Assembly (NCBI RefSeq): GCF_963677725.1
Contig: NZ_OY782507.1
Span: forward strand, 1,364,001 to 1,428,000
Source: an uncultured Cohaesibacter sp.
GTDB taxonomy: Bacteria > Pseudomonadota > Alphaproteobacteria > Rhizobiales > Cohaesibacteraceae
Direction: 5' to 3'
Length of the DNA: 64,000 nt
Shown: positions 5,850-58,742 of the stretch, piece by piece
Position numbering within the stretch: the stretch's first letter is position 1
Layout: each line of letters starts with the position of its first letter
Translations under genes and position numbers: made by a program
The notes under the pieces: generated by a model
What the model saw: only the letters and a program-made list of their open reading frames with translations
Told to the model about the DNA's origin: nothing
The model's database searches: none

Positions 5850-5873
5850 GGGCCCTTTCAATCAATGACAATG

Positions 5874-35839: not shown

Positions 35840-37288
35840 TCAGACGCTGTAACAGAGATATTTCTGTTCCAGAAAGTCCTCAATACCGTATTTGGAGCCC
35901 TCGCGTCCGAGACCGGAAGACTTGACGCCTCCGAAGGGCGCTTCGGCGGTGGAGACAAGGCCGGTATTGATGCCCACCATGCCGCTTTCCAATTCTTCGG
36001 CGACACGCCAGACAGTTGAAATGTCCCGAGCATAGAAATAGGCGGCCAACCCAAACTCGGTGTTGTTGGCAAGCTCTATGGCTTCTTCCACGGTTTCAAA
36101 CGTGATCACCGGGGCAACCGGGCCGAATGTTTCTTCGGACAGGACTTTCATGCCAGCGCTGACTTCGGACAACAGGGTTGGCTCAAAAAAGGTGCCGCCA
36201 AGTTCGGATCGCTTGCCACCGGTCTGGATCTTGGCGCCTTTCGACACTGCATCAGAGATATGGTCTTCGACCTTTTCAAGCCCTGCCTCATCGATCAGGG
36301 GGCCGATGGTGACGCCGTCCTGCATGCCATTGCCGACCTTGAGTTTGCTGATGGCGTCCGCCAGTTTCTCGGTAAATGCCTCGGCCACGCCGCTCTGAAC
36401 ATAGATGCGGTTGGCGCAAACACAGGTCTGGCCGGAATTGCGATATTTGGCGATCATCGCCCCCTCGACCGCGGAATCGAGATCAGCGTCATTGAAGACC
36501 AGAAATGGCGCATTGCCACCCAGTTCCAACGATAGCTTCTTGATGTCATGGGCACATTGCTGCATCAGGATGCGACCAACTTGCGTTGAGCCTGTGAAGG
36601 TAAGCTTGCGCACCTTGGGGTTGGTACAGAGCTCTTTGCCCACGCCCTTGGAATCGGAACTGGTGACAATCGACAAGACACCCTTGGGCACCCCTGCCCG
36701 TTCGGCCAGAACCGCCATGGCAAGCGCCGACAAGGGGGTTTTTTCAGCCGGACGACCGACAAACGTGCATCCCGATGCCAAGGCGGGGGCCACCTTGCGG
36801 GCGATCATCGCATTTGGGAAGTTCCAGGGGGTGATTGACCCGACAACCCCAATGGGCTGTTTGATCACGACGATGCGCTTGTCTTCCTGATGGCCCGGAA
36901 TGACATCGCCATAGACCCGGCGTCCTTCCTCTGCGAACCACTGAATGAAGGATGCCCCATAGGCAATTTCGCCCTTGGCCTCGGCGAGAGGTTTGCCCAT
37001 TTCGGCGGTCAGGATTTTGGCTAGATCGTCCTGATGCTCCAGCAGCAAATCGTTCCAGCGCAACAGGATTGCACAGCGTTCCTTGGCGGTCTTGGATCGC
37101 CACGCCTTCTGCGCCACATAGGCCGCGTCGATGGCGCTGGCGACATCTTCGGCAGACAAATCCGCTACATCGGCGATTTTTTCCCCGGTTGCAGGGTTCG
37201 TTACGCTGAAGGTTTTACCGTTTGAGACCCACTCACCCCCAAGAAAGGCGCGGTGTTCCAACAGGCTTTGATCGGAAAGCTCCAACAT
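35840..37288 (-). CDS. gabD: NAD(P)-dependent succinate-semialdehyde dehydrogenase
   Basis: A 482-residue aldehyde dehydrogenase with GSITPWNFPNAM, FTGSTQVGR, catalytic Glu255 (SLELGGNAP) and Cys289 (NSGQTCVCANR). It closely follows the GabD pattern and would oxidise succinate semialdehyde to succinate, the last step of a GHB/gamma-butyrolactone route (BlcA/AttK role). Residue 179 is Arg (FVGRPAEKTP), where the cofactor-binding Lys of ALDHs is usual. It is the last gene of the long operon, 31 bp after the alcohol dehydrogenase. Confidence 0.88.
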   Translation of the reverse strand: MLELSDQSLLEHRAFLGGEWVSNGKTFSVTNPATGEKIADVADLSAEDVASAIDAAYVAQKAWRSKTAKERCAILLRWNDLLLEHQDDLAKILTAEMGKPLAEAKGEIAYGASFIQWFAEEGRRVYGDVIPGHQEDKRIVVIKQPIGVVGSITPWNFPNAMIARKVAPALASGCTFVGRPAEKTPLSALAMAVLAERAGVPKGVLSIVTSSDSKGVGKELCTNPKVRKLTFTGSTQVGRILMQQCAHDIKKLSLELGGNAPFLVFNDADLDSAVEGAMIAKYRNSGQTCVCANRIYVQSGVAEAFTEKLADAISKLKVGNGMQDGVTIGPLIDEAGLEKVEDHISDAVSKGAKIQTGGKRSELGGTFFEPTLLSEVSAGMKVLSEETFGPVAPVITFETVEEAIELANNTEFGLAAYFYARDISTVWRVAEELESGMVGINTGLVSTAEAPFGGVKSSGLGREGSKYGIEDFLEQKYLCYSV

Positions 37289-37319: not shown

Positions 37320-38477
37320 TTAATAGGCAGCCCGATAAATAGCAAGCGCATCGGCTTCTTCCATCGGGCGAGGGTTGTTGACGAGGAGACGCGTCTGGTT
37401 CATCGCATCAGAGGCAAGCTTTGGCAGCATATCTTCGGGCACATTCATGGCCCTCAGATTCGTCGGCAATCCGCACTCCGTAGTCAGCTCCGCCAAGCGA
37501 TCACAGAAGGCAGCAGCGCGTTCCTGTCCTTCGAATCGGGACAATTCAGGAAAGGCGAAAGGTGCCAGCTCCGCGTAGGGTTCATGGGAGGTGACGATAT
37601 TGAAGCGCAGCACATGCGGCAGGACAAGGGCGTTGGACAGTCCATGCGGGATATGGAAATGCCCGCCAAGCGGATAGGCCAGTGCATGGACAGCAGCCAC
37701 AGGCGAATTGGCAAAGGCCTGCCCTGCGAGCATGGAGCCAAGCAGCATATTGCCACGCGCCACTTCGTCGCTTCCGGTCTGAACGGCCTTCAGAACCGAT
37801 GGTCCCATTAAAGAAAGGGCCTGCGTGGCGAGCATCCGCGAAACCGGATTGTTGTTGGCACTGGCCGAAGCATAGGCTTCTATCGCATGCACCATGGCGT
37901 CGATGCCCGTGGCCGCTGTGATATGCGGCGGCAGGCCATAAGTCAGCTCAGGATCGAGCAAAGCAATATCGGGCAAAATCACCGGCGAGAGAACAGCCAT
38001 TTTTTCATTGGTGCCAGTGGTGACAACGGAAATTGGGGTCACTTCGGAGCCTGTTCCGGCAGTTGTCGGCACAAGGATGAGCGGCAGCCTTAGTCCCTTG
38101 ACATTGCCAATGCCGTAAACATCCTTGAGTTCCTCGTCACTCCTTGCCAACAGGGCGACCAGTTTGGCCACATCAAGGGATGATCCGCCACCAAATCCGA
38201 GGACACCGTCAACATTGCTGTCTTTTGCCCGTTCGGCGGCCGAAAGAACAACCGCTTCGGGCGGATCGGCTTCCACGTCCGAGAAGAGTTCGACCGCGAC
38301 ACCGGCACCCTCGAGTGCTTTTAAGGCGCGGTCCACCAGACCGGTGGCGACCATGCCCGGATCAGTCACCAGCATGATCCGGTCCCCGATCTCCGCTTTG
38401 ACAATCTCTCCCACCTGGGCAAACAGCCCAACTCCGAACCGGATCGATTGCAACGTATTGAAAGTAAATGGTTTCAT
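37320..38477 (-). CDS. Iron-containing alcohol dehydrogenase, probable 4-hydroxybutyrate dehydrogenase
   Basis: About 385 residues from ATG 38477 after GAGGAG; the frame extends 11 codons upstream. Group III alcohol dehydrogenase: nucleotide site GFGGGSSLDVAK, TTAGTGSEVT and metal ligands in GIDAMVHAIEAY and HALAYPLGGHFHIPHG. Beside an SSADH and a BlcC-type lactonase it most likely oxidises 4-hydroxybutyrate to succinate semialdehyde (BlcB/AttL role). The substrate is inferred from context. Confidence 0.85.
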   Translation of the reverse strand: MKPFTFNTLQSIRFGVGLFAQVGEIVKAEIGDRIMLVTDPGMVATGLVDRALKALEGAGVAVELFSDVEADPPEAVVLSAAERAKDSNVDGVLGFGGGSSLDVAKLVALLARSDEELKDVYGIGNVKGLRLPLILVPTTAGTGSEVTPISVVTTGTNEKMAVLSPVILPDIALLDPELTYGLPPHITAATGIDAMVHAIEAYASASANNNPVSRMLATQALSLMGPSVLKAVQTGSDEVARGNMLLGSMLAGQAFANSPVAAVHALAYPLGGHFHIPHGLSNALVLPHVLRFNIVTSHEPYAELAPFAFPELSRFEGQERAAAFCDRLAELTTECGLPTNLRAMNVPEDMLPKLASDAMNQTRLLVNNPRPMEEADALAIYRAAY

Positions 38478-38506
38478 ATTCTTCTCCTCCCAGAATTTCC
38501 CCTCGT

Positions 38507-40456
38507 TCAAGAACCGAAGCTGAAGGCCGTCAGCACTGCCAGACCAAATGTGATGGCCCCGGCGATGATCAAGGCGCGCAGCCTTTCTGCCTCCCTGTCT
38601 GACTGATCTCGTCTCAGACGTTCAATCGGTTCATAAGCGGCGATGGTCACCTTCATCGGGCTTGCCATCTCCAACTTGTAGGCCAGGAACCATACAAGCC
38701 CCACACCACAGATCCAGCTTCCCAGCGTCCATGCCCATAGAGATGGCATGCCCAACAACCAGACCGGCTGGTCTTGTGCACCTGCTATAAAAGCCTTGTT
38801 GCCGAAAATTAGCCCCGGACCGACACTCAGGAAGAACCAGATCAGCGTCAGCGACCAAGCCGCTGACTTGAGGCTGCGGTTGTTCCCCTCGTTCCCGCCC
38901 AATCCGGCCAGCATTGCGCGCACATCTCGTGCTTCGCGCCCCAGCGTGTCCCGATTGGTAATCGCGGAAATGATCAGGACGGCAGTGACGTTGAGCGCCA
39001 TGCCCCACATGGCTGAGTGAATGGTCCAGGGCCATCGTCCCCACGGCAGTTCCAGTCCAAAGAAAGATAAAATCTGATAGCCGAACGGTTCAGTCAGAAT
39101 GACGCCAAAGGCCCCGAAGGCCGCGCCAACCACTGCTGCCTGTCTGGTGATCCATCCGAACCAGACCACGCCCAGAAGCGGCGTGCAAAGCTGGAAGGAC
39201 AGCGGCAGGGCCAAGGAGGCCAAAGCCGACAGGGTTACCGGTGCGATATTCTGCATAATCATCGCCAGAACGGCCAGAATGGCGATAACAACCCGCGTCA
39301 GCATCACGGCTTCGCGCTTGGTCAGCCTTGAATGGAAATAGGGTTTGTAGACATGCCGGATCAGACCTTCCGCGGCCACAAATAGCGACAAGCCTGCAAG
39401 CAACTGGACACCGGCAAGCAAGCCCAGAAAGATCGTGGCAGCGAACCATGGTGACTGGGCCATGATATGCAGAAGCACAGGTTGAAGCTGCATGTCAGGC
39501 TTGACGAGCCCCGCTGCGCCGATCAGGGCGATTGCAAAGACCACGATGAGGCCGATGAAGCCAGCGGTCACCCAGGTCTGGCCTGCCGCAAGGCCATTGG
39601 CGCTGCGGGTTGACAAAATGATCTTGAAAGCCAGAGGGCTGGCTTGGAAGCCCATCAATGCGAAAGCGAGCGAAAGATTGGCAAGGCTCGTCTGCGAGCC
39701 AGAGACCGCTCCGCCTCGCCCCAGTCCGGCGGTAAAGTCGATGACCTTGCCGACTTCGAAAAAGTGTCCATTGCCATCGATCATTGAAAAGGCAAGCAGC
39801 TTGGCATTCAGCGCCTCAAAGCCGCCCAGATAGACAAGGCAAAAGCCTGCCAGCAGAATGACTGCGGATGATGCAAGGACGGTCTGGAGCACGCCCAAAT
39901 AGCCGATGGACCGCATGCCGCCAATGCCTATCCCGGCAAAGAGAATGGCGGCGAAAAACACCGACGCCCCCAGTTGCGACACCGTCCCATCGGTCAGGGC
40001 CTCGGCAAGATGGGCCAGAAAGCGCACCTGCAATCCGCAAAATCCCAGCGCAAAAAGCAGCGCGACCGCGACAGAAAAACAGACCAGCAACGGGCTTTGA
40101 TAATAGAGCCGGAAGATGTCTGCCTGTGAGGAGACGCGCATGCGCTCGGCGATGAACCAGCTGCGCTTGAAGAATATGACGCCGGGCAGCGGTATGATGA
40201 CACCTGCCAGCAGCAATGCAGGCAAAGAAAATCCCCTTTGGGCAATTTGCTGACTGCCCGCAAAAAGCAGCCAGACAAACAGGCTTGCACCCGCCAGCAT
40301 CAAGGCGCCAACCCATGCGGGCAAGGCATGCCCGGCGGAGAAGAAGCCGTCCTCCCTGCCACCCGTATTGACCGCGAGCCGCGCCCAATAGAGAACAAGC
40401 AGTCCATAAGCCAGAACCAGCAGAGGCAGCCAGATCATGTGGGTTGCAACGCTCAT
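38507..40456 (-). CDS. Sodium:solute symporter (SSS family)
   Basis: A 649-residue membrane protein with about 13-15 helices. SSS features include AVNTGGREDGFFSAGHALP near helix 1-2, GGMRSIGYLGVLQTVLASS and ALASLALPLSFQL. The SSS fold couples Na+ to uptake of carboxylates, amino acids or sugars. It overlaps the preceding small membrane gene by 4 bp. As a second importer in the operon beside the ABC system, it may take up the free hydroxy acid. The cytoplasmic tail is charged. Confidence 0.8.
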   Translation of the reverse strand: MSVATHMIWLPLLVLAYGLLVLYWARLAVNTGGREDGFFSAGHALPAWVGALMLAGASLFVWLLFAGSQQIAQRGFSLPALLLAGVIIPLPGVIFFKRSWFIAERMRVSSQADIFRLYYQSPLLVCFSVAVALLFALGFCGLQVRFLAHLAEALTDGTVSQLGASVFFAAILFAGIGIGGMRSIGYLGVLQTVLASSAVILLAGFCLVYLGGFEALNAKLLAFSMIDGNGHFFEVGKVIDFTAGLGRGGAVSGSQTSLANLSLAFALMGFQASPLAFKIILSTRSANGLAAGQTWVTAGFIGLIVVFAIALIGAAGLVKPDMQLQPVLLHIMAQSPWFAATIFLGLLAGVQLLAGLSLFVAAEGLIRHVYKPYFHSRLTKREAVMLTRVVIAILAVLAMIMQNIAPVTLSALASLALPLSFQLCTPLLGVVWFGWITRQAAVVGAAFGAFGVILTEPFGYQILSFFGLELPWGRWPWTIHSAMWGMALNVTAVLIISAITNRDTLGREARDVRAMLAGLGGNEGNNRSLKSAAWSLTLIWFFLSVGPGLIFGNKAFIAGAQDQPVWLLGMPSLWAWTLGSWICGVGLVWFLAYKLEMASPMKVTIAAYEPIERLRRDQSDREAERLRALIIAGAITFGLAVLTAFSFGS

Positions 40457-40878
40457 TTCCCGGTCTTCCCCGTCTGATCATGCTTAATGTGAAAATGGGA
40501 AAAAGCGCCTTTCAACCCGTAGCGGGTAGCCAGATAGACCGGCAGCCCAACAGTGAGAACGGCAAAGAGAGCCAATCCGGACCAATAGTCGGACATGGAC
40601 AACGCCCCCTGCAGCCAAGCTGCAATGAAAACCAGGATCGCTATGCCGAACAATCCCATTCCCAGCGCGCTTTCCCCTGAGGAGAAGCCGGTCCCGGCAA
40701 TGGCATTGATCACCATATGCGCGACGAACCCGGTTACAATCACGCAGATCCCCACCAGAGAAAGCATGAAACTGTCATCTGCGAAGCCTTCCAGCAGAAA
40801 GGCAGCCCCACAAAGGCCGAGCACGGCCCAGTTGGCGTGGACCAACAAATCGCGTTCCGTTATGGATAGCTTCAACAT
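40453..40878 (-). CDS. Small four-helix membrane protein, partner of the symporter
   Basis: A 141-residue protein with about four helices and a charged C-terminal tail (HIKHDQTGKTGK). Its stop overlaps the symporter start (ATGA type), suggesting that the two proteins are made in step. No family is recognised. Confidence 0.65.
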   Translation of the reverse strand: MLKLSITERDLLVHANWAVLGLCGAAFLLEGFADDSFMLSLVGICVIVTGFVAHMVINAIAGTGFSSGESALGMGLFGIAILVFIAAWLQGALSMSDYWSGLALFAVLTVGLPVYLATRYGLKGAFSHFHIKHDQTGKTGK

Positions 40879-42762: not shown

Positions 42763-43464
42763 TCACGCATCTTCTTTCTCCTTGCTGTCGATCAAGGCAG
42801 ATGCCAGAACGGCCATGCCAAACGCCATGCGGTTCAGGAAATCGGCGATGTTGTAGGTTACGGAAAGGGCTCCGGTATCAGTGTAGCCGCTGAAGGAGGT
42901 CAGGAAGTTGCCTAGCGGATAGACGGCCCAGCCGACCGTCACAATCAGCCGAAGCCAGAAATAGCCTCTTCTTACCGGTTCGCTGAGCGATCCCCGGATA
43001 ACCTCGTCCATGCGACCGAAGAACAGCTCTCCGAGAATGTAGAGCCACAGGACAAGCCCGATGAGAAAGGCCAGCGTCTCGTTCATCAGACTTGCCTCGC
43101 CGAGATAGCGGACAAATACCATGAGGTTGGTCACGATGGCCAAGCGCCAGAACAGACCGGCTCCCAGACCACCGCATCTTGCCGCAAAGAAATAGAGCGC
43201 CAGAATTTGCAGCGGCATGGACACTCCCCAGCCGACATAATGATAACCGACAGGCACCTGTTGCACCGCCATCCAGGCTTCCCGCGCCTCATAGACAGCG
43301 CCGACCCCGACCAAAGCCGCGATACCGCACAATGTCACGGGCAATTTCCAGCTGCGCTCTGCCCATCCCGACCCGATGAAAAGCAGCACGCTTGTTGCGA
43401 CCAGACCCAAGAGCGCAGTCGAATAACTGGCCGCTGTGATATCAGCCGTTTCGAAAACCGCCAT
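42763..43464 (-). CDS. Microbial rhodopsin homologue lacking the retinal-binding lysine
   Basis: A 233-residue protein with seven predicted helices (about 12-32, 42-62, 72-94, 103-122, 126-150, 167-190, 200-226). It matches proteorhodopsin: YHYVGWGVSMPLQI in helix C (PR RYIDWLLTVPLLI), RYLGEASL and ELFFGRMDE around D-E, GWAVYPLGNF in helix F, and TYNIADFLNRMAFG in helix G (PR YNLADFVNKILFG). The residue at the Schiff-base position is Arg212, codon CGC at 42829-42831. The PR counterion Asp97 is Gly78, Arg94 is His75 and proton donor Glu108 is Ala89. Asp208 (PR Asp227) is kept. It cannot hold retinal in the usual way, so it is not a normal pump; a sensory or structural role is possible. Confidence 0.88.
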   Translation of the reverse strand: MAVFETADITAASYSTALLGLVATSVLLFIGSGWAERSWKLPVTLCGIAALVGVGAVYEAREAWMAVQQVPVGYHYVGWGVSMPLQILALYFFAARCGGLGAGLFWRLAIVTNLMVFVRYLGEASLMNETLAFLIGLVLWLYILGELFFGRMDEVIRGSLSEPVRRGYFWLRLIVTVGWAVYPLGNFLTSFSGYTDTGALSVTYNIADFLNRMAFGMAVLASALIDSKEKEDA

Positions 43465-43511: not shown

Positions 43512-44897
43512 CTAGATTTGCGTTCTGATATGCGGCGAGCGGGCATAGAGCGCGACCATCGGCAGAATGAGCAGACCGAAAATGAATTGCTGCCATTCGA
43601 ATTCGAGACCGATGCCGATGAGGAAAGATGAAAGAACTTGCAAGACGAGAACCCCGATGACGGTAAAGCCATAACTGCCCTGACCGCCCAGAAGGGACGT
43701 TCCCCCGACGACGACCGCCGCCAAAGTGAGGAACAGATATTGATCGCCTACGCCAATGAAGCCGCCGCCGGACCAGCCCAGCAGCAGAGCCCCGGCCATG
43801 GCCGCAAAGAAACCGGAAATGGCATACATCGTGACCCAGTAGCCAAGCTCTGAAATCATGACGCGGCTGGCAGACGTGCGGTTGACGCCGAGCGCATAAA
43901 GATAGCGTCCATACACCGTGTATCTCATACCCACGGTCAAGAGGATCAGAACCAGCCCCCAGATCGCGATCACGGGCGGGAAAGGCAGGCCGAAGGTCGA
44001 GCCGTTCATCGCAGCAAGGTTGGACAGCCAGTCAGGCACCTGACCGAACACGTTGCCCGAATAGGCCGAACCAATCGAGGTGATGATCTGAATGCCGCCA
44101 GAGATCGCAAAGCCGGTTCCAAGGGTGACAATCAGCGCCTGTCCCTGCAAACGATAGCTAAGTAGCCCGTTGATAACGCCAAGGATCGCACCCGTCAGCA
44201 AAACGATGATCACCGCCAGCCATGAAGGCACGCCAAGACTGATGAGATACAACAGGCCCACATTGGCCGCGCCAATGACGAAGGGGATCGACAGATCAAG
44301 TCCGCCCAGCAAGGCCACCAGCGTCTGCCCGACCGATGCAATGCCAAGGAAGGAGGCAAAGAGCAGCATGGCCTTGATGTTGGCACCGGACGCGAAGCCA
44401 TCGATACTCATCGACCCGATGGAAAACAGGCCGCACAGGACCATGATTCCAATGAAGGCGGACCGGTTCTGCTCGAAATAGCGCCCGAGCGTGCGGGTCA
44501 GCACGATGATGGTCAGGATAATGAGAAAGGAAACAATGTTCCAGATGTTGAAGAAACTCTCGACCGTCAGCGACAGGACCAGAAACAGCGCCAGCAGAAA
44601 CAGCAATCCGTAGAGTGGTGCCCTGAATTGCAGCCAGACCTTACGCCCTTCGCTGACGGCGCCTTCTTCGGTCTGCTTTTCGCTCTTGGCGAAGTGGCTG
44701 GCAAACTGGCCAAGCACAAAGCGCCAGCCCCACATGAAGGCCACCATGGTGGTGATGGCCGACAGGATGATCAATTGGACGGACAAGCCCTGCTTGAAGC
44801 CAAACACCACGCCAATCACAGTGAGAATGATGGCGATGGCCAGCCCGATGATGATTACGGGCAAGCTGAGACGCGGCTGGGGTGACATGGAAGTCAT
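43512..44897 (-). CDS. ABC transporter permease, RbsC-like (second permease)
   Basis: A 461-residue inner-membrane permease of the BPD_transp_2 family, with FASFLGIASVGQTLVALLGG, LDLSIPFVIGAANV and the EAA-like region VVVGGTSLLGGQGS near the end. It overlaps the first permease gene by 4 bp (ATGA). It is longer than typical RbsC because of an extra N-terminal part with two helices and a charged loop before the transport domain. It forms the heterodimeric channel with the next-listed permease. Confidence 0.85.
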   Translation of the reverse strand: MTSMSPQPRLSLPVIIIGLAIAIILTVIGVVFGFKQGLSVQLIILSAITTMVAFMWGWRFVLGQFASHFAKSEKQTEEGAVSEGRKVWLQFRAPLYGLLFLLALFLVLSLTVESFFNIWNIVSFLIILTIIVLTRTLGRYFEQNRSAFIGIMVLCGLFSIGSMSIDGFASGANIKAMLLFASFLGIASVGQTLVALLGGLDLSIPFVIGAANVGLLYLISLGVPSWLAVIIVLLTGAILGVINGLLSYRLQGQALIVTLGTGFAISGGIQIITSIGSAYSGNVFGQVPDWLSNLAAMNGSTFGLPFPPVIAIWGLVLILLTVGMRYTVYGRYLYALGVNRTSASRVMISELGYWVTMYAISGFFAAMAGALLLGWSGGGFIGVGDQYLFLTLAAVVVGGTSLLGGQGSYGFTVIGVLVLQVLSSFLIGIGLEFEWQQFIFGLLILPMVALYARSPHIRTQI

Positions 44898-46513
44898 TTG
44901 CTATCCTCCATTTGCGAGCCGGGTGTCTGCGCATCAGGCATCGTTGCGCTGGGCACCTGTGTGCTTGGCGTCTGTGTGCTTGGCGTCTGTGTGCTTGGCG
45001 TCTGTGTGCTTGGCCTCTGTGTGCTTGGCCTCTGTGTGCTTGGCCTCTGAGTGATGGGCATCTGCGCGTTGGGAACGGGCGCTTTGGCGGGCGTCTTGGC
45101 CGTATCCTGCATCAGGAATGCGATATAGAGCACAAGCGAGGCAACAACCGTTGCGACGACCGGCGCGACTGTCTTCCGGTCGGACTGGCTCACGGCAATC
45201 CTTACAAAGACCGCGATGAAAGTGAGAAGCAGAACGGACAGAACGAGCGGCATCGCCATGGCGCGCAGCGCTTCGTCCTTTGCGGTCGGCTGGGCGACTT
45301 CCAGTGGTGCCACATAAAGCGCTTTGGCATCGATAGGCGCCAAAGGCGCAATGGTGGTTGCCACGCTCTCTTCCGGTTTCGCGTTCCTCGCTCTTGGATC
45401 GATATCGTTGGTCGAATGCAAGATGATGCCCATTGCCACGACGCCAAGGGCCACAAAATACAGGAGCGGCGAGAAATTGCGGATGTGACGGGTGATGAAG
45501 GGGATGATCAGCGTCAGCAGAAGGGAGATGACCAGAATGGAGCCATAGGCAAGGTTGGTCACAAAGCTCTGCACCGCACCGAAATTGAAGGTCGCCAGCA
45601 CAAAGGTGATCAAATAGAGGTTCACGGCCCCAAGGAATGACCCAAAGACACCAGCCCGGCCACCAGCCAGAGATGCCCCGCCTAGCACCAAAGCGGTGAC
45701 CGAGATCAGCGTGTAGGTGGTGCCTTGCGAAGGGTCACCCGACGCTATCAGACCGGTAAAGGCAATGGCGGTTAGCCCTGCAAAGCAGCCGGAAATGAGA
45801 TGGGCACCAATGCGAACGATATAGATCGGCACACCGGCCGTGTAGGCCGCTCGCTCATCGGACCCCATCAGGCGCAAATGGGTATAGAAAGCGGTGCGCG
45901 TGAATAGTAACCACGCCAGGGTTGCCACGATCAGGATCACGAAGACCGGAGAGAAGATGGATGTCCCAAGACCCCATTCGGCCATGAATTCAGGCGCCAT
46001 CCCCCCCGGACGCGGCAGGATCACCAGATTGATCCCTGACAAGGCCAGATAGCCAGAAAGAGACACGATGATCGGCTGCACCCGCACATAGAGCACCACC
46101 AGCGCGAACAGAAACTGGTAAGCTGCACCGACAAACAGGGCATAGAGAAAGACAGAGATCGGGTTTTGCAGCAGCCCGGCGGCATAAAGCTGGATCAACG
46201 TTACGTTGATGAAGCTGATCAGCGGCCCGATTGACAGATCTACGGTGCCACGACCGGAAATGACCGAGGCCATTAGCGCGTAGGTGGCCAGAACCAGTGG
46301 TGTCGCGACGACAATCGCGCTGCCAATGCCCGATACGGTCATCAGGCTGGGCGATCGCAGCGACGCCAGACCGAGCAGCAGGAAGAACAAGGTGATCGGC
46401 ACCAAGAGGAACGGATTTGCCCGGCCGCCTTGTGCTTGTGCTTGTGCTTGTACAGCATTGTCGCCGGTCCCTGCGCTCAAAACTTCGGTCTTGTTGATAC
46501 TTGCATCTGTCAT
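44894..46513 (-). CDS. ABC transporter permease, RbsC-like, with repeat-bearing C-terminal tail
   Basis: A 539-residue permease: about eight helices with ISGRGTVDLSIGPL and VTALVLGGASLAGGRAGVFG, then a C-terminal addition of about 190 residues with three extra helices and a Pro/Ser/Thr/Gln tail containing multiple PSTQT/R units. The N-terminus has an Ala-Gln repeat (46431-46454). The tail is not part of known sugar permeases and probably faces the cytoplasm or periplasm as a flexible tether. Confidence 0.85.
   Translation of the reverse strand: MTDASINKTEVLSAGTGDNAVQAQAQAQGGRANPFLLVPITLFFLLLGLASLRSPSLMTVSGIGSAIVVATPLVLATYALMASVISGRGTVDLSIGPLISFINVTLIQLYAAGLLQNPISVFLYALFVGAAYQFLFALVVLYVRVQPIIVSLSGYLALSGINLVILPRPGGMAPEFMAEWGLGTSIFSPVFVILIVATLAWLLFTRTAFYTHLRLMGSDERAAYTAGVPIYIVRIGAHLISGCFAGLTAIAFTGLIASGDPSQGTTYTLISVTALVLGGASLAGGRAGVFGSFLGAVNLYLITFVLATFNFGAVQSFVTNLAYGSILVISLLLTLIIPFITRHIRNFSPLLYFVALGVVAMGIILHSTNDIDPRARNAKPEESVATTIAPLAPIDAKALYVAPLEVAQPTAKDEALRAMAMPLVLSVLLLTFIAVFVRIAVSQSDRKTVAPVVATVVASLVLYIAFLMQDTAKTPAKAPVPNAQMPITQRPSTQRPSTQRPSTQTPSTQTPSTQTPSTQVPSATMPDAQTPGSQMEDSK
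44944..45063. repeat. 15-bp tandem repeats in the permease gene
   Basis: Six near-identical 15-bp units run from 44959 to 45048, with one degenerate unit on each side. They encode the PSTQ[TR] pentapeptide repeats of the permease tail. The first three and last three units differ by one base (GGCGT against GGCCT), suggesting duplication in blocks. Confidence 0.95.
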
Positions 46514-48348
46514 GCTGCACCCCCTTTGGAACCAATGGAGCGCGGCTGCCCGGTTTCTGCATCGAACTCGACAATGCGAATGGGCCGAACAGCAGGGGCT
46601 TCGGGTGCGGGGTTGGTTGGTTGCGGATCCTTGGCTTTGACCGGCAGGCTGTCATGGGAAAGCTCAATCCGATCATCGGCTTGCATGGGGGCAACCGGCT
46701 GGACGATGACAGGGTCAATCACGACAGGCTCTGTGATGACAGGCTCGGATACCCCGGTGGCCCCTTCTGGCTTCAGGCCCCACGGCGCTTGCAGCCCACT
46801 CCCGTCCGTCTGTCCGAACATGGCTTCGAGGATTTCTTTGGAATCCAGCTGGCGGCCATCAAAGGCGTCGAAGGGCGTCCCGTTGCGAAACACGATGATG
46901 CGCGTCGCAAATCCGATGAATTCCTCCAGTTCCGAGGACATATAAACGACCGATTTGTCCTCACTGGCGAAGGTCCGAAGATGCTTGTAGAGCTCGGTCT
47001 TGGCACCAACATCGATGCCGCGCGCCGGATCATTCAACACGATCACATCAGGCCGCATGGCAAAGCCGCGCCCGATCAGCACCTTTTGCTGGTTGCCGCC
47101 AGACAGGGAGGTGATGGCATTTTCCTTGACGCCGAACTTGATCATCAGATTGTCGGCTTCGCGCTTGAAAATGGTGACAAGGGTGGCGAAGTCCACAAGA
47201 CCAAGAAAGCCAGCGCGTTTCTTTTCCCGATAAAGCGGCATGACCATATTTTCAAAAATGGACAGGGAGGCAAAAATCCCCTCGCGCTTTCTGTCGCCTG
47301 ATACATAGGCGATTTTGCCCTTCACCGCGTCAGCCAGCGTGCGGACAACCGAAAACTGCCCCTGCCGGTCTGACACCCAGACAAAGCCGCTCTTGACGGG
47401 TTCGACCCCTGCCAAGGCGCGCACGAAGGCATCCTGACCTTGGCCATCCAGCCCTGCGATGCCGACAATTTCGCCACGTCTTAATGCAAAATCAAAAGGG
47501 GCTGTTCCTTCGACCAACGAAATGGCCTCGGCTTTCATGGCGAGCTCATGGCCATGCGGTTGAGGTGCTTTGAGATCAACCGCCTGTCCGGCGGTTTCGT
47601 CCCCGGTCATCAGCGCCAGCAGGTTCTTCTCGGTGATTTCTTCTTTTTCTTTTTCGAGCACGCCGACGTCACAGCCATCGCGCAGGACGGTCGCGCGATC
47701 GGATATGCGGATCAACTCTGCGATGCGGTGCGTCACGATCAGGATCGTCGTGCCGCCATCGCGCAATTCCCGCATTTTGGCAAAGAGCCGCTCGGTGCTG
47801 TCCAGATCGAGCGCTGCGGAACTTTCATCCAATATCAGGATTTTGGGATCGCTGACCAAGGCGCGGGCAATGGTGATCCATTGCTTGAGACCAAGGGGCA
47901 GCGTGCCAACCAAGGCAAAGGGATCGACGGGTTCACCGGCAAGATCCTGCATCAACGCGGCAGCGCGGGCCACCTTGTGCTCCTGCGCCATGCTCTTTGA
48001 GAAGAGCGCGTCGGATCCCATGAATATGTTGTCCACGACCGTGCATTCATCGGCCACCAGCACTTCCTGATAGACCGTGGAAATGCCCAGCGCCTTGCTT
48101 TCTGCCGGGGTGGAAGGCGCTTCACCCAGAATGGAAACCGAACCGCTATCGACGGGCAGAACGCCGGAGACGACTTTTGCCATGGTGCTCTTGCCGCACC
48201 CGTTGCCGCCCACAATCGCATGCACCTCTCCTGCGCGGGCAGAAAAACTCACCCCATCCAGCGCACGGGTTGGCCCGAAAAATTTCTTCACATTGCGCAC
48301 AGAGATCGTCTCGCGAGCCTGGCTTTGTGATGGTTGGGCAGATGACAT
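46510..48348 (-). CDS. ABC transporter ATPase, RbsA-like tandem-domain protein
   Basis: About 612 residues from ATG 48348; a TTG at 48363 would add 5. The first ATPase domain has Walker A GGNGCGKST and ILILDESSAALD but a degenerate signature. The second has a degenerate P-loop and an intact LSGGNQQK. This split is common in RbsA proteins. The last 90 residues are a Pro/Val-rich extension (VITEPVVIDPVIVQP) absent from typical family members. Overlaps permease 1 by 4 bp. Confidence 0.88.
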   Translation of the reverse strand: MSSAQPSQSQARETISVRNVKKFFGPTRALDGVSFSARAGEVHAIVGGNGCGKSTMAKVVSGVLPVDSGSVSILGEAPSTPAESKALGISTVYQEVLVADECTVVDNIFMGSDALFSKSMAQEHKVARAAALMQDLAGEPVDPFALVGTLPLGLKQWITIARALVSDPKILILDESSAALDLDSTERLFAKMRELRDGGTTILIVTHRIAELIRISDRATVLRDGCDVGVLEKEKEEITEKNLLALMTGDETAGQAVDLKAPQPHGHELAMKAEAISLVEGTAPFDFALRRGEIVGIAGLDGQGQDAFVRALAGVEPVKSGFVWVSDRQGQFSVVRTLADAVKGKIAYVSGDRKREGIFASLSIFENMVMPLYREKKRAGFLGLVDFATLVTIFKREADNLMIKFGVKENAITSLSGGNQQKVLIGRGFAMRPDVIVLNDPARGIDVGAKTELYKHLRTFASEDKSVVYMSSELEEFIGFATRIIVFRNGTPFDAFDGRQLDSKEILEAMFGQTDGSGLQAPWGLKPEGATGVSEPVITEPVVIDPVIVQPVAPMQADDRIELSHDSLPVKAKDPQPTNPAPEAPAVRPIRIVEFDAETGQPRSIGSKGGAA

Positions 48349-48406
48349 GGTTGTGTTTCTCAATTCGCTTGGAATTCAAGGGTTCGAAAGAGTAAGGGGA
48401 GCCGCC

Positions 48407-48494: not shown

Positions 48495-49664
48495 TCAAGG
48501 CTTGTATTTGGTCGGATCTGCCGGATTAACGAAGAACTGATTGAGATACTCGGTAGAGCCCCATGCGTCCGCGCCGACATTCAGCCAGTTCTGGGCATTC
48601 TCATCGCAATCCTCAGGCAGCATTTTCATCACATCGTCATGGGTGATCACCACCGGATCGACCAGAACGGACTGCACTTTGGGGCCTTGACCCTGCAGGG
48701 TCCGCATCATGATGCGCCAGATGAGATTCACGTCGTCTGCCGGTGGCCAGGTCTGGACGGCTGCACTGATCATATCCGGATTTTTGCGCCATGTGCACAA
48801 TGCACCGCGCTCGCCACCGATAGCGATTTTGACGCCCTGACGACCCGACTGTTTGATGGCGCGGATGACGCCCATTTCAGCGGCGGACTGCACGACAATG
48901 CCGTCAAGCTTGCCCGGATGGGTGGCCAGCCATTTCTGGACTTCGCCCTGAGCGACCTGATCGGTCCACATGCCAGCGATGGAGCCGACAATCTTGATGT
49001 CAGGCGCGGTTGCCAGACCGGCCTTGACGCCACGGTCCTGACTGTCAGAACCGGACGTGCCCGGAATGCCTTCGACAACCAGGACATTGCCTTTGCCGCC
49101 CAGCTCTTCAGCCATGCGCTTGCCGATTTCAAAACCCGCAACCTGATAGTTCACGGACGAGTTGATCGCGGTCGGGGCGGTCAGATAGCCAGTCATGGAG
49201 AAGACAGGCACACCCTTGTCATAGGCATATTTGATGGTCTGGTTGAGGGCTGTCGGGTTGGAACAGCAAACGAAGATCGCATCAACGCCTTGATCCACGA
49301 GCTGGCGCATCTGCTGGATCTGGGTTGAATCGTTAAGGTTGGATTGGGTCACGACCACTTCACTGATCAGGCCCAGATCCTTCCATTTGGGAATGATCTC
49401 ATTCTGCAAAGCTTCCATTGCGTTGGCACGCCAGGTGTTGCCCGCATAGGAAGACGCATAACCGATCTTCCACGGTGGCGGGTTTTTGGCCTTGAAGTCG
49501 CGCAGTGGGCTTGGGCCGACAGGTTGCATCGGATCCAGCATATCCTTGTTATACAGGCGCTTGGCTACATCGGGGTTGATCTCGTCGACCCCTTCTGCCT
49601 GTGCGGCCATGGCGCCAAAAGCAACAAGGCCCAAAGCCACAACGGCTTTCTTAAACAGTTTCAT
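48495..49664 (-). CDS. Periplasmic substrate-binding protein of the ABC importer (RbsB-like)
   Basis: A 389-residue type I periplasmic binding protein with signal peptide (cut after AAQA). The mature part begins EGVDEINPDVAKRLYNKDM, then IGYASSYAGNTWRANAM and GVDAIFVCCSNPTALNQ, of the Peripla_BP_4 fold. Ligand class for this family is often sugars, but the operon context favours a lactone, a hydroxy acid or related compound. First gene of the four-gene ABC set. Confidence 0.87.
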   Translation of the reverse strand: MKLFKKAVVALGLVAFGAMAAQAEGVDEINPDVAKRLYNKDMLDPMQPVGPSPLRDFKAKNPPPWKIGYASSYAGNTWRANAMEALQNEIIPKWKDLGLISEVVVTQSNLNDSTQIQQMRQLVDQGVDAIFVCCSNPTALNQTIKYAYDKGVPVFSMTGYLTAPTAINSSVNYQVAGFEIGKRMAEELGGKGNVLVVEGIPGTSGSDSQDRGVKAGLATAPDIKIVGSIAGMWTDQVAQGEVQKWLATHPGKLDGIVVQSAAEMGVIRAIKQSGRQGVKIAIGGERGALCTWRKNPDMISAAVQTWPPADDVNLIWRIMMRTLQGQGPKVQSVLVDPVVITHDDVMKMLPEDCDENAQNWLNVGADAWGSTEYLNQFFVNPADPTKYKP

Positions 49665-49800: not shown

Positions 49801-50730
49801 TCAGTCGTAAAAGTCATTCGGTGCCTTCAAAAAACTCTGCCAAGTGTCCGGGTCATGCCCGGTCACGACCATTGCGTTGGTGTCGCTTGCGATGCGCCGC
49901 AGCTTGTCGACGGAGTTGACCGCGTCGCTTGACGAGTGGACCAGTCCGGGTAAGGCCTTGTTCTCCCAGTGATCAATCGTGTAGGCCGCATCGATGGTCA
50001 AAAGCACTGGTCCGGTCCGTGGCAACGTGATCAGGAATGACTGGTGGCCGGGAGCATGACCCGGCGTGAAGATGATGCGCACGGTGCCATCGCCGAACAG
50101 GTCGAAATTGTCTGTATATTCGCCGCCAAGGAACTTCCAGTTGAGACCCGGACGGTCAAAATCGGCGCGGATATAGGCACCTTGCGAGAACCACTGCGGC
50201 TTGAAGGCATATTCATATTCGACACGCTGGCAAATGATCTGGGCGTTGGGGAAATGCCCAATCGCACCGGTGTGATCCAGATGCAGATGGGATTGCAGGA
50301 CATAGCGGATCGAGGCAGGGTCGACACCCGCTGCGCGCAATTGGTCCACGCAATTCTCCGAGCGGTCCATGACGGGATCATAGGCATCCACCACAGCACC
50401 CCAATGGCCGCGCTTGTCAATGGCAGCTTCCACCGCATTGCCGCCATCGATGACGATATTGCCCGCCGGATGCTTGATCAGGAACCATGGCACGGGAATT
50501 TCGAAATCCTCCTCGCCCTGATTCATCTTGATATATTTCAGTTTCGTGCGCAGGGTTCCGGTCTGGAACATATGAAGTTCGATGCCGGAGGACTCGCCGC
50601 GTCTGCGGGATGAAGCCGTGGATTGCGAAACCGGTCGCGCCGCCAGACTGTCAGCACCGATTGTCTGGCCGATCGCGCTGGCATCGGTCGCAATCTTTTG
50701 GCCCTTTTCATCAAATTCAATGATCTTCAT
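49801..50730 (-). CDS. blcC: AttM/BlcC-type metallo-beta-lactamase lactonase
   Basis: A 309-residue enzyme. The zinc motif HxHxDH is at residues 148-153 (SHLHLDHTGAIG), later ligands in FTPGHAPGHQS, LLTIDAAY and VVTGHDPD. It is strikingly like Agrobacterium AttM/BlcC, which opens gamma-butyrolactone to 4-hydroxybutyrate and can also hydrolyse N-acyl-homoserine lactones. The catalytic part starts near residue 50; about 45 extra N-terminal residues are polar and of unknown role. Confidence 0.87.
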   Translation of the reverse strand: MKIIEFDEKGQKIATDASAIGQTIGADSLAARPVSQSTASSRRRGESSGIELHMFQTGTLRTKLKYIKMNQGEEDFEIPVPWFLIKHPAGNIVIDGGNAVEAAIDKRGHWGAVVDAYDPVMDRSENCVDQLRAAGVDPASIRYVLQSHLHLDHTGAIGHFPNAQIICQRVEYEYAFKPQWFSQGAYIRADFDRPGLNWKFLGGEYTDNFDLFGDGTVRIIFTPGHAPGHQSFLITLPRTGPVLLTIDAAYTIDHWENKALPGLVHSSSDAVNSVDKLRRIASDTNAMVVTGHDPDTWQSFLKAPNDFYD

Positions 50731-50777: not shown

Positions 50778-51626
50778 TCAGGTCCGGTTCTCGATCACGC
50801 GCAGCGCTTCTTTGAGATAAACCGCAAAGAGCGGATAATTTTCCGACATCGGGAAATGACCGATGTCCTCCATTTCGATATAGATGCCGCCTGGTATCTG
50901 ACGCGCCGTATTCTCGGTCGCTTCCGGTGGGGTGAGATAGTCATAGGTGCCGGTCATCATCACGACGGGGCAGCGGGCGGTATCGATTTCGCCCAAACGA
51001 CCGCGCATATCGTGGTCGATTGAATAGAAATAGAGGTCGCCCTGAAACACTTCCGAACCTTGGGTATAGTAATGCCAGGTTGCCCAGCGATCCTGCTCCG
51101 GGCTTTGCGGTGCCATCAGATCCCACACACCGGATGCACAGACCTGAGCGGCATTGACATGGGGGTGACGCCACCATTCCAGAAAGAAACCCGGCGCGTG
51201 TTCGGCGGCTTCAACCGGAATGACCGCACGAAAGCGATCGGGGTGATGAAGGGCCAGCTGCAAGGCAACATTGCCCCCGAAGGACGATCCCATGAAGATC
51301 GGGTCTTCCAACTCCAGCGCATCGCAAAAGGCGAGGATGAACTTCATGAAATGGTCGGCTGTGAGCTTGTATTCTTCTTTCCACCACTCCTTGTTGGTCG
51401 GCGGATCCGACTTGCCATGCCGGGCCAGATCATAGGCAATGACGTCATACTGGGTCGTGATGTCCGGATCTTCGAGCAGGTCGCGCCATTGATGGTTGTG
51501 ACAGCCAGCCGTGTGCTGACAGACCAGTGGCTGCCCCTGCCCGTTGCGCAGATAGAAGACCTTATACTCGCATCCATCCACATCGATGGTTACATACCGA
51601 CCCACGACCGGAGAGTGCTTGACCAT
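50778..51626 (-). CDS. Alpha/beta hydrolase
   Basis: A 282-residue hydrolase with nucleophile Ser in FMGSSFGGN, acid Asp in TGTYDYLTPP and His in IGHFPMSE. The oxyanion region is HTAGCHNHQWRD. It may cleave an ester or lactone precursor entering the pathway. Substrate cannot be deduced. Confidence 0.82.
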   Translation of the reverse strand: MVKHSPVVGRYVTIDVDGCEYKVFYLRNGQGQPLVCQHTAGCHNHQWRDLLEDPDITTQYDVIAYDLARHGKSDPPTNKEWWKEEYKLTADHFMKFILAFCDALELEDPIFMGSSFGGNVALQLALHHPDRFRAVIPVEAAEHAPGFFLEWWRHPHVNAAQVCASGVWDLMAPQSPEQDRWATWHYYTQGSEVFQGDLYFYSIDHDMRGRLGEIDTARCPVVMMTGTYDYLTPPEATENTARQIPGGIYIEMEDIGHFPMSENYPLFAVYLKEALRVIENRT

Positions 51627-51687: not shown

Positions 51688-52077
51688 TCAAACCGGCACG
51701 CCCACTTTGCGCAACAGCTCAAATTGAATGGTGAAATTGCGAAGATTTTGCATTAGGACAAGCAAGTTGCCTTCCAGCTTGAGATCGCGCCGGAAGCTCG
51801 CAGACCAAATGCCGTGATACATCGGATTGGGTACGGGTTGCGCGAATTCCCGCCATGTGTCAGGGCTGGCTCGCAATGCAAAATCGTAGGAATCAAGAGG
51901 GCCGGGATTGATATTGATTTCATGCACCTTGCCGTCCAACATTCGAACGATCGCCTTGGCGGCGCCCATGTCCAGCAGGTAGGTGCAAGTAAAATAACGC
52001 GCCATTGCACCAATGGCGGCATCATTATCCGAGGCTTGACTGAATCTGGTTGCCCAGTCTCTAACACTCAAGGCCAT
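51688..52077 (-). CDS. SCP2-like small protein, first gene of the operon
   Basis: 129 residues from ATG 52077, with the strong site GGGAGGAG ahead of it (the frame extends upstream, but this start is clear). The pattern GKVHEININPGPLDSYDF, WREFAQPVPNPMYHGIW and LEGNLLVLMQNL is that of the sterol-carrier-2-like fold, which binds hydrophobic molecules. It may carry or sense a lipophilic substrate. Confidence 0.6.
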   Translation of the reverse strand: MALSVRDWATRFSQASDNDAAIGAMARYFTCTYLLDMGAAKAIVRMLDGKVHEININPGPLDSYDFALRASPDTWREFAQPVPNPMYHGIWSASFRRDLKLEGNLLVLMQNLRNFTIQFELLRKVGVPV

Positions 52078-52141: not shown

Positions 52142-52176
52142 GTTCCTGAATATGTTCTTTGTTCAGTATATGGAAC
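52142..52176. promoter_or_regulatory. Candidate IclR operator
   Basis: GTTCC-N25-GGAAC lies between the operon start and the divergent iclR-type gene, with the inner sequence GTTCTTTGTTC. The arrangement suits a regulator controlling both directions, but arms are short and the regulator's site is not known. Confidence 0.35.
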
Positions 52177-52262
52177 GTCTTTCGTTATCTGAAACAATAT
52201 CCGGGCAACTGGAAGCCTGTCAAGGTGGAAAAACCGCGGCGAAATAAAAACGACGAGGAATT

Positions 52263-53039
52263 ATGGACAACCCAACACCAAAGCTAGTACCAGCGGTTGA
52301 AAGAGCGTCACGCATTCTGGATTTTGTTGCTCGCAGTCGGACGCATCCGACCGTGTCGAAACTGGCGCAGGAACTGGATCTTGCGAAAAGCTCGGTTCAT
52401 ACGCTTTGTCAAACACTTGTGGAGCTTAACCTGCTCATCAAACGGTCAGACCAATCCTATCAGTTGGGGCCCCATGTGATGCGGTGGTCCAACGCCTTCA
52501 ATCGGCAATCAGACGTTGCAACAGAGTTCGCATCCATTTGGGACACCGAAACTGAAATGCCCGGTGCGACCATCACATTGACAGTCAGAGATGGATCAGA
52601 AGTTGTCTATATTGCCGCGCGCAATTCGGAATTCAGTCACTCTTTGATAGAATTTCGTGCCGGAATGCGGCTTCCCGCAGCCTTCACGGCAACGGGAAAA
52701 GCCTTTCTCAGCTCCATGAGCGACTTTGAGGTCAAGCGCCTTTATGCGGATGGGCTGCCAGAACCGCGCACCCCTTTCAGCGAGCAATCGGTTGATGCGC
52801 TGTTGGAGGATTTGGCGACCATTCGCAAGCGTGGTTATTCCATCGACAATCAGGAAGTGGCCGAAGGAATCATTTGTTTCGGCGCACCGGTTCTGGACTC
52901 TCAGAATACACCGATTGCTGGCATTGCCGTCAGTCTGCTGATTGAAGATGCGGACGAGACGGACCGCGAAAATCTCATTGCCAATGTCAAACGCATCGCA
53001 AAACGGTTGTCTGTGCGCATGGGCGCCGATCTGGAATAA
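52263..53039 (+). CDS. IclR-family transcriptional regulator (BlcR-like)
   Basis: 258 residues: a winged-helix DNA-binding domain (HPTVSKLAQELDLAKSSVH) followed by an IclR ligand domain (FTATGKAFLSSM, DNQEVAEGIICFGAPVLD). It is divergent from the lactonase operon. In Agrobacterium the blcABC operon is repressed by the IclR-family BlcR and derepressed by succinate semialdehyde or related acids; the same logic is likely here. Confidence 0.9.
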   Translation: MDNPTPKLVPAVERASRILDFVARSRTHPTVSKLAQELDLAKSSVHTLCQTLVELNLLIKRSDQSYQLGPHVMRWSNAFNRQSDVATEFASIWDTETEMPGATITLTVRDGSEVVYIAARNSEFSHSLIEFRAGMRLPAAFTATGKAFLSSMSDFEVKRLYADGLPEPRTPFSEQSVDALLEDLATIRKRGYSIDNQEVAEGIICFGAPVLDSQNTPIAGIAVSLLIEDADETDRENLIANVKRIAKRLSVRMGADLE

Positions 53040-54152: not shown

Positions 54153-55127
54153 ATGTTCAAGATGACAAAAGCTGTCGCGGCTTCTGCTGCGCTGCTGTTT
54201 GCTGGTGCGCTCTCCGCAACATCAGCTTTTTCCGCCGATTACCCAGACAAACCAGTTGATGTGATCGTCGCCTTCGGGCCAGGTGGTGGCACCGATGTTG
54301 CTGCGCGCACAATCGAGCCATTCATCGAGAAATATCTTGATACTGATCTGGTTGTGATCAACAAACCGGGTGCTGGTGGTGAAATCGGCTTCTCTCTGCT
54401 CGCCTCGGCCAAAACCGATGGCTATACAATCGGCTTCATCAACCTGCCAGCCATGTTCGCTTATTCTTATGAACGCGAAACATCATATTCCCCCAAAAGC
54501 TTCAAAGGCGTGGCAAACCTCGTCTATGATCCAGGCATCATCGCAGTCCCCGCAGACAGCAAATTCAAAAATCTCAAGGAACTGATCCAGTTCGGTCTGG
54601 ACAATCCTAAAGCGCTTCCGATCGGCACCTCCGGCTCGGTTGGCTCCAGTGAGCATATTGCCATTCTTCAGATGCAGGCCAAAACCGGCGCGACCTTCAA
54701 CCATGTTCCTTTTGGCAGCACCGCGCCATTGCGGACAGCTTTGTTGGGTGGCCACATTCCCGCAGCCGCTTTCAACCTCAGTGAAGCCGTTGACTATATG
54801 CAGGAAGGCAAAATGCGCATTCTTGGCGTGATGTCCGCTGAACGGTCCCCAATGGCACCAGACGTGCCAACCTTTAAAGAACAAGGCGTTGATGTGATCA
54901 ATGGCTCGTCGCGTGGCCTTGCTGTTCCAGCGGGCACCCCCGATGACATTGTCGAGAAACTCAGCGCTGCCGTCGAGAAAGCCATCAACGACCCTGAATA
55001 TGCTGCAAAAGCAAAATCAGCGGGTGTTCCGGTTTTGTATCTCGACGACAAAAAATATGACGAGTTCCTGACCGAAACCAGCAAGAATCTTGATATTACC
55101 TGGGAAAAAACTCCTTGGACTAACTAA
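54153..55127 (+). CDS. tctC: Tripartite tricarboxylate transporter binding protein TctC
   Basis: 324 residues with signal peptide (cut after SAFSA). Typical TctC features: DYPDKPVDVIVAFGPGGGTD and NKPGAGGEIGFSLLASAKTDG. It delivers a carboxylate or similar ligand to the TctAB channel. GGAG precedes the ATG. A hairpin follows the stop. Confidence 0.93.
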   Translation: MFKMTKAVAASAALLFAGALSATSAFSADYPDKPVDVIVAFGPGGGTDVAARTIEPFIEKYLDTDLVVINKPGAGGEIGFSLLASAKTDGYTIGFINLPAMFAYSYERETSYSPKSFKGVANLVYDPGIIAVPADSKFKNLKELIQFGLDNPKALPIGTSGSVGSSEHIAILQMQAKTGATFNHVPFGSTAPLRTALLGGHIPAAAFNLSEAVDYMQEGKMRILGVMSAERSPMAPDVPTFKEQGVDVINGSSRGLAVPAGTPDDIVEKLSAAVEKAINDPEYAAKAKSAGVPVLYLDDKKYDEFLTETSKNLDITWEKTPWTN

Positions 55128-55141
55128 TCTCAATGGTGCAG

Positions 55142-55164
55142 CCGGCAGCAAAAAACGCTGCCGG
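55142..55164 (+). terminator. Attenuator-type hairpin between tctC and tctB
   Basis: CCGGCAGC pairs with GCTGCCGG (7-nt loop), then TTTGTCTTT. As an imperfect terminator it would raise TctC output over the membrane parts. Confidence 0.7.
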
Positions 55165-55185
55165 TTTGTCTTTAGGATCAGGTAA

Positions 55186-55659: not shown

Positions 55660-55669
55660 GAAGACAGAC

Positions 55670-57187: not shown

Positions 57188-57191
57188 CAAA

Positions 57192-57623: not shown

Positions 57624-57717
57624 CGTTCGGCCTTCGGGCCAACATTCAAGTCCCAAATTCCAATCTCAAGAATAACCAACTGCCCTTCACAACGGCAGAA
57701 CAGGAGGCTATTGCCTA

Positions 57718-58713: not shown

Positions 58714-58742
58714 ATCCATCTAATCATTTTAAAGGAAGTATC

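Follow-up and report, generated by a model that had tools for sequence, protein, structure and literature searches.

The opsin encoded in the 64,000-nucleotide stretch analysed here (the window) is a lysine-less member of the flotillin-associated rhodopsins (FArhodopsins), and is very probably non-photochemical. We incline to the view, with somewhat more confidence than doubt, that it has left photochemistry and most likely acts in the membrane as a subunit or scaffold of an ABC importer that flotillin organises and that serves a blcABC-like lactone/hydroxyacid route. The best clue to its function is the company it keeps: an ABC importer, a lactonase, two dehydrogenases and a BlcR-like regulator.

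The opsin gene is intact, with an ATG start and 233 codons, and has the coordinates given by an earlier, sequence-only reading of this DNA, which had described a proteorhodopsin-like protein with arginine in place of the retinal-binding lysine. A profile search bore out the identity (Bac_rhodopsin, 63.7 bits with a cut-off of 24.6, E 2.2e-17), while an NCBIfam search returned no match. Arg212 is read directly from the sequence (CGC, nt 42831-42829), and alignment with proteorhodopsin (PDB 4jq6) confirmed the other changes that had been listed, namely His75 for Arg, Gly78 for the counterion Asp and Ala89 for the donor Glu, as well as the retention of the second counterion, Asp208. The helix G lysine and the helix C counterion Asp and donor Glu of light-driven type-1 rhodopsins are therefore absent, being replaced by Arg212, Gly78 and Ala89. 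Structure prediction, proposed earlier as a check, gave a type-1 opsin fold (AF2, pLDDT 89.8, pTM 0.86), and Foldseek matched the model to PsFAR, the FArhodopsin of Pseudothioglobus (PDB 9r21, TM-score by query 0.96), and to proteorhodopsin (7b03, 0.88). A lysine elsewhere in helix G that might anchor retinal is ruled out, as K40, K228 and K230 are the only lysines of the protein; a Schiff base cannot form there, which in a protein of this fold makes photochemistry very improbable. The earlier proposal of a non-photochemical seven-helix protein with a ligand-binding or scaffolding role thus fits the data, but it missed the named family and made no use of the operon. Its statement that lysine-less opsins are a class with unknown role was right in that such opsins are known (the haloarchaeal ORPs) but overlooked the FArhodopsins, including their published lysine-less freshwater members.

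On the minus strand, the gene order is SCP2-like protein, alpha/beta hydrolase, AttM lactonase, binding protein, ABC ATPase, permease A, permease B and opsin, followed by flotillin, a 141-aa membrane protein, a 649-aa SSF-like protein, Fe-ADH and aldehyde dehydrogenase (Table 1). Several assignments are approximate. The ABC ATPase matches NCBIfam sugar-ATPase models, every one below its cut-off, and the Fe-ADH matches many NCBIfam models, including 4-hydroxybutyrate dehydrogenase, none of them over its cut-off. The aldehyde dehydrogenase is 79% identical to a Martelella protein annotated as succinate-semialdehyde dehydrogenase. As AttM homologues are about 256 aa long, the true start of the lactonase is probably near nt 50574. 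The SCP2-like label comes from a sub-threshold match and from the wording of Haro-Moreno et al. (2023; PMC10308929); the open frame of this gene, which extends to nt 52197 and overlaps the promoter, is too long (homologues have 129 aa), and its dN/dS of 0.20 counts non-coding bases of that over-long frame. For the 649-aa protein, phmmer with the single sequence found no match in PDB, and the window member itself has no Pfam match, but four of the five members of its profile set carry an SSF domain and the five-row profile matches an SLC5-type choline transporter in PDB (5.7e-14). The C-terminal PSTQT-type tail of permease A is coded by seven copies of a 15-bp repeat (nt 44957-45064).

Table 1. 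Features of the opsin operon and its upstream region in the window.
Feature	Position (nt)	Strand	Evidence and remarks
Aldehyde dehydrogenase	35840..37288	-	Aldedh 2.3e-170
Iron-containing alcohol dehydrogenase (Fe-ADH)	37320..38510	-	Fe-ADH 6.9e-49
649-aa membrane protein, divergent sodium:solute symporter relative	38507..40456	-	Five-row profile
Small membrane protein, 141 aa, four hydrophobic stretches	40453..40878	-	No significant family match
Flotillin (SPFH/Band 7 + Flot domain), 575 aa	40978..42705	-	Flot 1.8e-34, Band_7 1.7e-17; PDB Flotillin-1 9bq2 1.1e-9; 57 nt past opsin stop
Lysine-less FArhodopsin, 233 aa	42763..43464	-	Pfam 2.2e-17; PDB 9r21 4.5e-38; AF2 model and Foldseek; tree
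Codon CGC, Arg212 replacing the Schiff-base lysine	42829..42831	-	Sequence; alignment
ABC permease B (BPD_transp_2)	43512..44897	-	Core at 174-445; hydrophobic N-terminal extension of ~140 aa; directly upstream of opsin
ABC permease A (BPD_transp_2)	44894..46513	-	BPD_transp_2 4.6e-11; C-terminal extension of ~200 aa ending in PSTQ-type repeats
CUT2-type double ABC ATPase	46510..48348	-	ABC_tran 8.5e-39; start codon uncertain, ORF opens at 48363
Importer periplasmic substrate-binding protein	48495..49664	-	Peripla_BP_4 7e-37; PDB CUT2-family binding proteins 4rs3, 5hko, 4rsm
AttM-family lactonase	49801..50730	-	NCBIfam NF045700 430.9 bits (cut-off 390); PDB 9khq 1.4e-109
Alpha/beta hydrolase	50778..51626	-	Abhydrolase_1 5.4e-23
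Small protein, ~129 aa, sub-threshold SCP2 (sterol-carrier) likeness	51688..52077	-	SCP2 E 0.082, 13.7 bits (cut-off 21.3)
Operator-like palindrome GTTC-N8-GAAC	52161..52176		Alignment, 16/16 loci compared
Sigma-70-like promoter TTGACA-N18-TATTGT	52194..52223	-	TTGACA in 14/16 loci compared
Divergent IclR-family regulator	52263..53039	+	IclR_C 6.7e-26; PDB 3mq0 'repressor of the blcABC operon' 4.1e-51, residues 8-254 of 258

The palindrome and promoter were compared upstream of the first operon gene in 16 chosen loci of the Arg branch. A loose form of the palindrome occurs three times in the window where 0.9 would be expected, and a narrower pattern was drawn up after seeing the alignment, so the weight of this element lies in its conservation rather than its rarity. 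Beyond the regulator, the plus strand (nt 54153-60241) carries what we take to be genes of a TctCBA-type tripartite transporter followed by HIT, URO-D-like, RidA and cysteine-synthase-like proteins. Judged by eye, a periplasmic protein and a sensor histidine kinase are encoded on the minus strand at nt 60390-62782.

The closest PDB sequences to the opsin are two entries of PsFAR (9r21, 4.5e-38; 9r23, 7.6e-38), with proteorhodopsins following, so that sequence and Foldseek searches agree on FArhodopsins and proteorhodopsins as its best relatives. The same-strand flotillin gene next to the opsin identifies the family. Maximum-likelihood analysis of 79 rows separates 54 FArhodopsins, the window opsin among them, from 25 proteorhodopsins (support 100/96); identical proteins were left out of this tree, as were 11 named near-copies and most of the proteorhodopsin loci in the range L086-L132, and 14 loci were added. 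The 44 lysine-less rows (43 different sequences) form a single clade (100/100) on a long branch (0.89), and 10 lysine-bearing FArhodopsins fall outside it (95/82). Such a topology is most simply explained if the lysine was lost once, with position 212 varying afterwards. Homologues sharing the arginine, a search for which had been proposed, make up 25 of the 79 alignment rows; the remaining lysine-less rows have Leu (17), Glu (1) or Gln (1). Loss of the lysine, with Arg among the variants, is already published for the family, as freshwater metagenome FArhodopsins with Gln, Thr, Leu or Arg at this position have been described (PMC10308929).

The lysine-less clade also differs elsewhere. All 44 rows lack Asp78 and have Arg119, a residue seen in none of the 35 lysine-bearing rows. 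A scan of genome contigs gave the same picture: among the matches listed (80 of at least 586 confirmed stretches, to which the counts below also refer), Arg119 without Asp78 was found at 29/29 lysine-less and 0/51 lysine-bearing loci. Arg119 takes the place of a pocket Gly and, in the PDB sequence alignments, Arg119 and Met83 fall opposite Glu120 and His84 of PsFAR; by its title, entry 9r23 is the PsFAR mutant H84V/E120G, a change that puts proteorhodopsin-type residues at these sites. Position 119 probably belongs to the retinal pocket. Its bacteriorhodopsin counterpart is, we assume, Gly122, which lines the ring of retinal. Compared by PDB titles and sequences, PsFAR has the same fold and family as the window opsin, with 31% identity over the whole length, but it keeps the Asp, the Lys and Glu120. 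Gly145 marks the whole family (54/54 FArhodopsin rows, 0/25 of the proteorhodopsin rows kept), and the lysine-less clade has fixed W34, F92, F149, G167, F169 and W170 (43 or 44 of 44 rows). By the usual topology these residues presumably lie at cytoplasmic helix ends, where they could dock a flotillin or permease partner. In alignment and tree, the window opsin has the motif G-S-A, which is neither DTE nor the DTT, DTL or DNI of marine FArhodopsins (PMC10308929).

The tie to the importer is close. Permease B, opsin and flotillin are consecutive in 47 of 48 rows (46 distinct loci, as two same-contig pairs, L038/L064 and L043/L073, are included) and in five further loci (L199-L203), and flotillin adjoins the opsin in all 48. 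The one exception is a Thioglobus locus (L130), whose opsin is flanked by the binding protein and flotillin and has no adjacent permease B. Among the matches listed (80 of at least 586), flotillin and permease B accompany 29/29 lysine-less opsins and 0/49 proteorhodopsins; at those 49 loci neither flotillin nor permease matches were found. A search for shared gene context, also suggested earlier, recovered the same operon order on plasmids of Hoeflea, Martelella and Pararhizobium. In Pararhizobium no aldehyde dehydrogenase follows Fe-ADH; nor is one seen in the Hoeflea stretch, which stops at the record edge. Named carriers are Hoeflea sp. IMCC20628, Martelella lutilitoris ZRK001, Pararhizobium gei, Rhizobium terricola and Roseovarius litoreus DSM 28249. 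Within the genus of the window the opsin is patchy (3 of 18 genomes), and relatives bear it on plasmids, which suggests horizontal transfer. One such plasmid, CP070278.1 (labelled Dysgonomonadaceae zrk40), differs from Martelella NZ_CP066788.1 by 5 bases in length and its opsin is equally similar; it is perhaps a mislabelled record.

Both permeases are extended where the opsin is present. Among 397 genomes of the order, permease B is matched from residue 17 or earlier in 13, and all 13 have a FArhodopsin; five others (G042, G063, G195, G290, G386) have a 56-62% identical permease B core that starts at about residue 141, and no opsin match. One lysine-bearing FArhodopsin genome (G028), whose opsin is on a 4-kb contig, gave no permease match. 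Ahead of the permease B core, 46 of 47 opsin rows have an open frame of at least 133 codons (the remaining row is cut by a contig end), and permease A continues for at least 128 codons past its core in 45/45 measurable rows. At six opsin-less loci, by comparison, permease A runs on for only 9-24 codons, and permease B has no room for, or no homologous, extension. Three opsin-less loci (L164-L166) keep the hydrolase, binding protein, ATPase, permeases and aldehyde dehydrogenase, and lack opsin, flotillin and extensions. The opsin module therefore looks like an add-on to an importer operon, for which these loci provide a natural control. The extensions are hydrophobic; the predicted model of permease B is poor (pLDDT 51.3). 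In two lysine-bearing opsin clusters (L044, nt 5843-8050; L085, nt 6064-8469) the C-terminal extension of permease A reaches 418-485 aa, with many hydrophobic stretches.

The metabolic setting varies between branches. AttM is present in the Arg branch, with Fe-ADH and aldehyde dehydrogenase in most loci, whereas neither AttM nor Fe-ADH was found in the stretches seen of the Leu branch, which carries hydrolase and SCP2-like genes at 26-49% identity. In the Leu clade and two lysine-bearing clusters the AttM-Fe-ADH-ALDH set is lacking or represented by distant versions, so FArhodopsins do not all share the lactone pathway. The alpha/beta hydrolase and the binding protein are the best conserved cluster genes, with 74-90% identity at most loci and 41-49% within the Leu clade, and the hydrolase of lysine-bearing clusters is 74-80% identical to that of the window. 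Lysine-bearing clusters include hydantoinase A and B (L044), a PxpA-family gene with biotin carboxylase (L199) and N,N-dimethylformamidase-like genes (L130, L199). The opening of small cyclic esters or amides may be the theme that these clusters share.

In the favoured reading, the importer would bring in a cargo, plausibly a gamma-lactone or hydroxyacid, that is opened by the AttM-type lactonase and then oxidised by the Fe-alcohol dehydrogenase and the semialdehyde dehydrogenase. The opsin would touch the permease extensions, flotillin or both, and its former retinal pocket (Arg212, Arg119) may accommodate a small anion of amphipathic character (a hydroxyacid or fatty acid, for example) or may simply be filled. 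A retinal-free proteoopsin has been reported to hold decanoate in its pocket, the carboxylate being salt-bridged to the lysine (PMC11322631) at the position of Arg212 in the window opsin. With Arg212 there, the pocket could still bind an anion although no Schiff base forms, and a second charge would come from Arg119. Such a site would suit a pathway that makes hydroxyacids from lactones, as the blcABC route is described to do (PMC5924552). Because position 212 carries no positive charge in the Leu branch, a role common to both branches would more readily fall to Arg119. A bolder version, which we put forward tentatively and do not expect to hold in full, is that FArhodopsins, instead of being light proteins, are dedicated subunits of a novel type of ABC importer: both permeases of this CUT2-type transporter would have gained additional membrane helices on which an opsin oligomer and flotillin collar dock, and the lysine-less pocket, rebuilt around Arg119 (and Arg212) for substrate or lipid, would make the opsin a receptor and gate for nutrient uptake.

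It is unlikely, though worth weighing, that a FArhodopsin oligomer instead organises or scrambles lipids in a flotillin microdomain, with the transporter a mere client that has no direct link to the opsin. Several kinds of opsin scramble phospholipids independently of light (PMC12805836), although the main text of that study names neither flotillin nor lysine-less opsins. The PsFAR PDB entries contain five chains, as a pentamer would, and the constant flotillin neighbour (48/48 rows) would be expected on this account. The new invariant aromatics W34, F92, F149, F169 and W170, presumably at cytoplasmic helix ends, would suit it too. Lipid handling accounts, however, neither for the link of the opsin to one importer nor for the extension of both permeases where it occurs.

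There is a rather small chance that the opsin is a ligand sensor, telling the importer, flotillin or a kinase when it is occupied by an acid derived from a lactone or by some other cue, in the manner proposed for non-light opsins of Haloarchaea. The haloarchaeal ORPs, of which one group has Arg for Lys, adjoin chemotaxis transducers (Becker et al. 2016; PMC4915679). In the surroundings of the Thioglobus opsin (L130) there are two-component genes, an MHYT-LytTR protein is encoded near the L085 opsin, and Arg119 is common to all 44 lysine-less rows. The window operon, on the other hand, has no transducer or kinase, and its regulator is a soluble IclR protein.

A helper of a coexisting proteorhodopsin in dim light, as put forward for marine FArhodopsins (PMC10308929), is very improbable here. 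Two marine-type genomes (G653, G730) do have both rhodopsins and Blh, in agreement with that study, but each of the 12 lysine-less genomes, of which 11 are at least 90% complete, gave a single Bac_rhodopsin match, and Blh was found in 0/12, compared with 5/6 proteorhodopsin genomes. The genome of the window is one contig (4.63 Mb, 99.6% complete) with a single Bac_rhodopsin match, which rejects a proteorhodopsin partner in this genome, and a search of it for Blh found none. Three 4-Mb genomes with a lysine-bearing FArhodopsin (G580, G673, G750) likewise have one rhodopsin match each and no Blh, so the helper idea cannot be general. Marine FArhodopsins, by contrast, are described as having a bona fide proteorhodopsin elsewhere in the genome and their cluster flotillin as its only copy, whereas the genome of the window has a second Flot-domain gene (G000:C1:503548-503913) away from the opsin. 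A coexisting proteorhodopsin is a property of genomes and not of the protein, and membership in the FArhodopsins is therefore kept. An RPE65-family carotenoid oxygenase, which could make apocarotenoids, occurs in one of the 12 lysine-less genomes (G109, Leu branch); heliorhodopsin had no match in the 12, which shows little, as the control genomes also lacked one.

A decaying gene or sequencing error, which the joint loss of several functional residues might suggest, is hardly credible and is refuted by the open frame, the dN/dS (0.078 to the nearest relative, 0.094 in a second comparison), the conserved operon and the invariant residues common to 43 different lysine-less sequences, and purifying selection together with 44 non-Lys rows out of 79 shows that Arg212 is neither chance nor a sequencing slip.

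Among known systems, the closest is the lysine-less freshwater branch of PMC10308929, with the same clade, a same-strand flotillin neighbour and lysine loss with an Arg variant. The clusters described there include the gene kinds seen in the window (inner-membrane translocator, sodium symporter, sterol-carrier-like, alpha/beta hydrolase, iron ADH), but were read as membrane-microdomain genes aiding proteorhodopsin, where we see an importer and its catabolism. The window adds a single-contig genome without a second Bac_rhodopsin match and a complete operon with importer, AttM and BlcR-like regulator. The haloarchaeal ORPs are also lysine-less type-1 opsins but are described as relatives of sensory opsins near chemotaxis transducers (PMC4915679). 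Rh-noK of betaproteobacteria (Yamauchi et al. 2019, via PMC10308929) is likewise a natural lysine-less opsin, but is described there as xanthorhodopsin-related and, unlike the window opsin, as standing in tandem with a working rhodopsin. The Agrobacterium blcABC/attKLM operon shares an AttM-type lactonase with the window; the two dehydrogenases fit its Fe-ADH- and aldehyde-dehydrogenase-type partners by family, and the IclR-type regulator, a putative repressor, has BlcR as its best PDB match. As described in PMC5924552, the Agrobacterium operon has no opsin, flotillin or comparable importer, and the substrate in the window is a predicted one. A literature search for PsFAR, or for flotillin with opsin and ABC transporter, found PMC10308929 alone (preprints and most subscription journals lay outside its scope). 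Not found in the literature searched, and in that sense new, are the link to one particular importer whose permeases are extended, an Arg119 that never varies in the lysine-less clade, a tree that points to one lysine loss, and isolates that lack a proteorhodopsin match and in which function is testable.

Since named sequenced strains have such an opsin in a defined operon for which a growth phenotype is predicted, the role of retinal-less opsins is open to study by gene deletion. Should the transporter reading be true, many marine and soil 'rhodopsins' would leave the counts of light energy, and opsins would gain a role in transport that does not depend on light.
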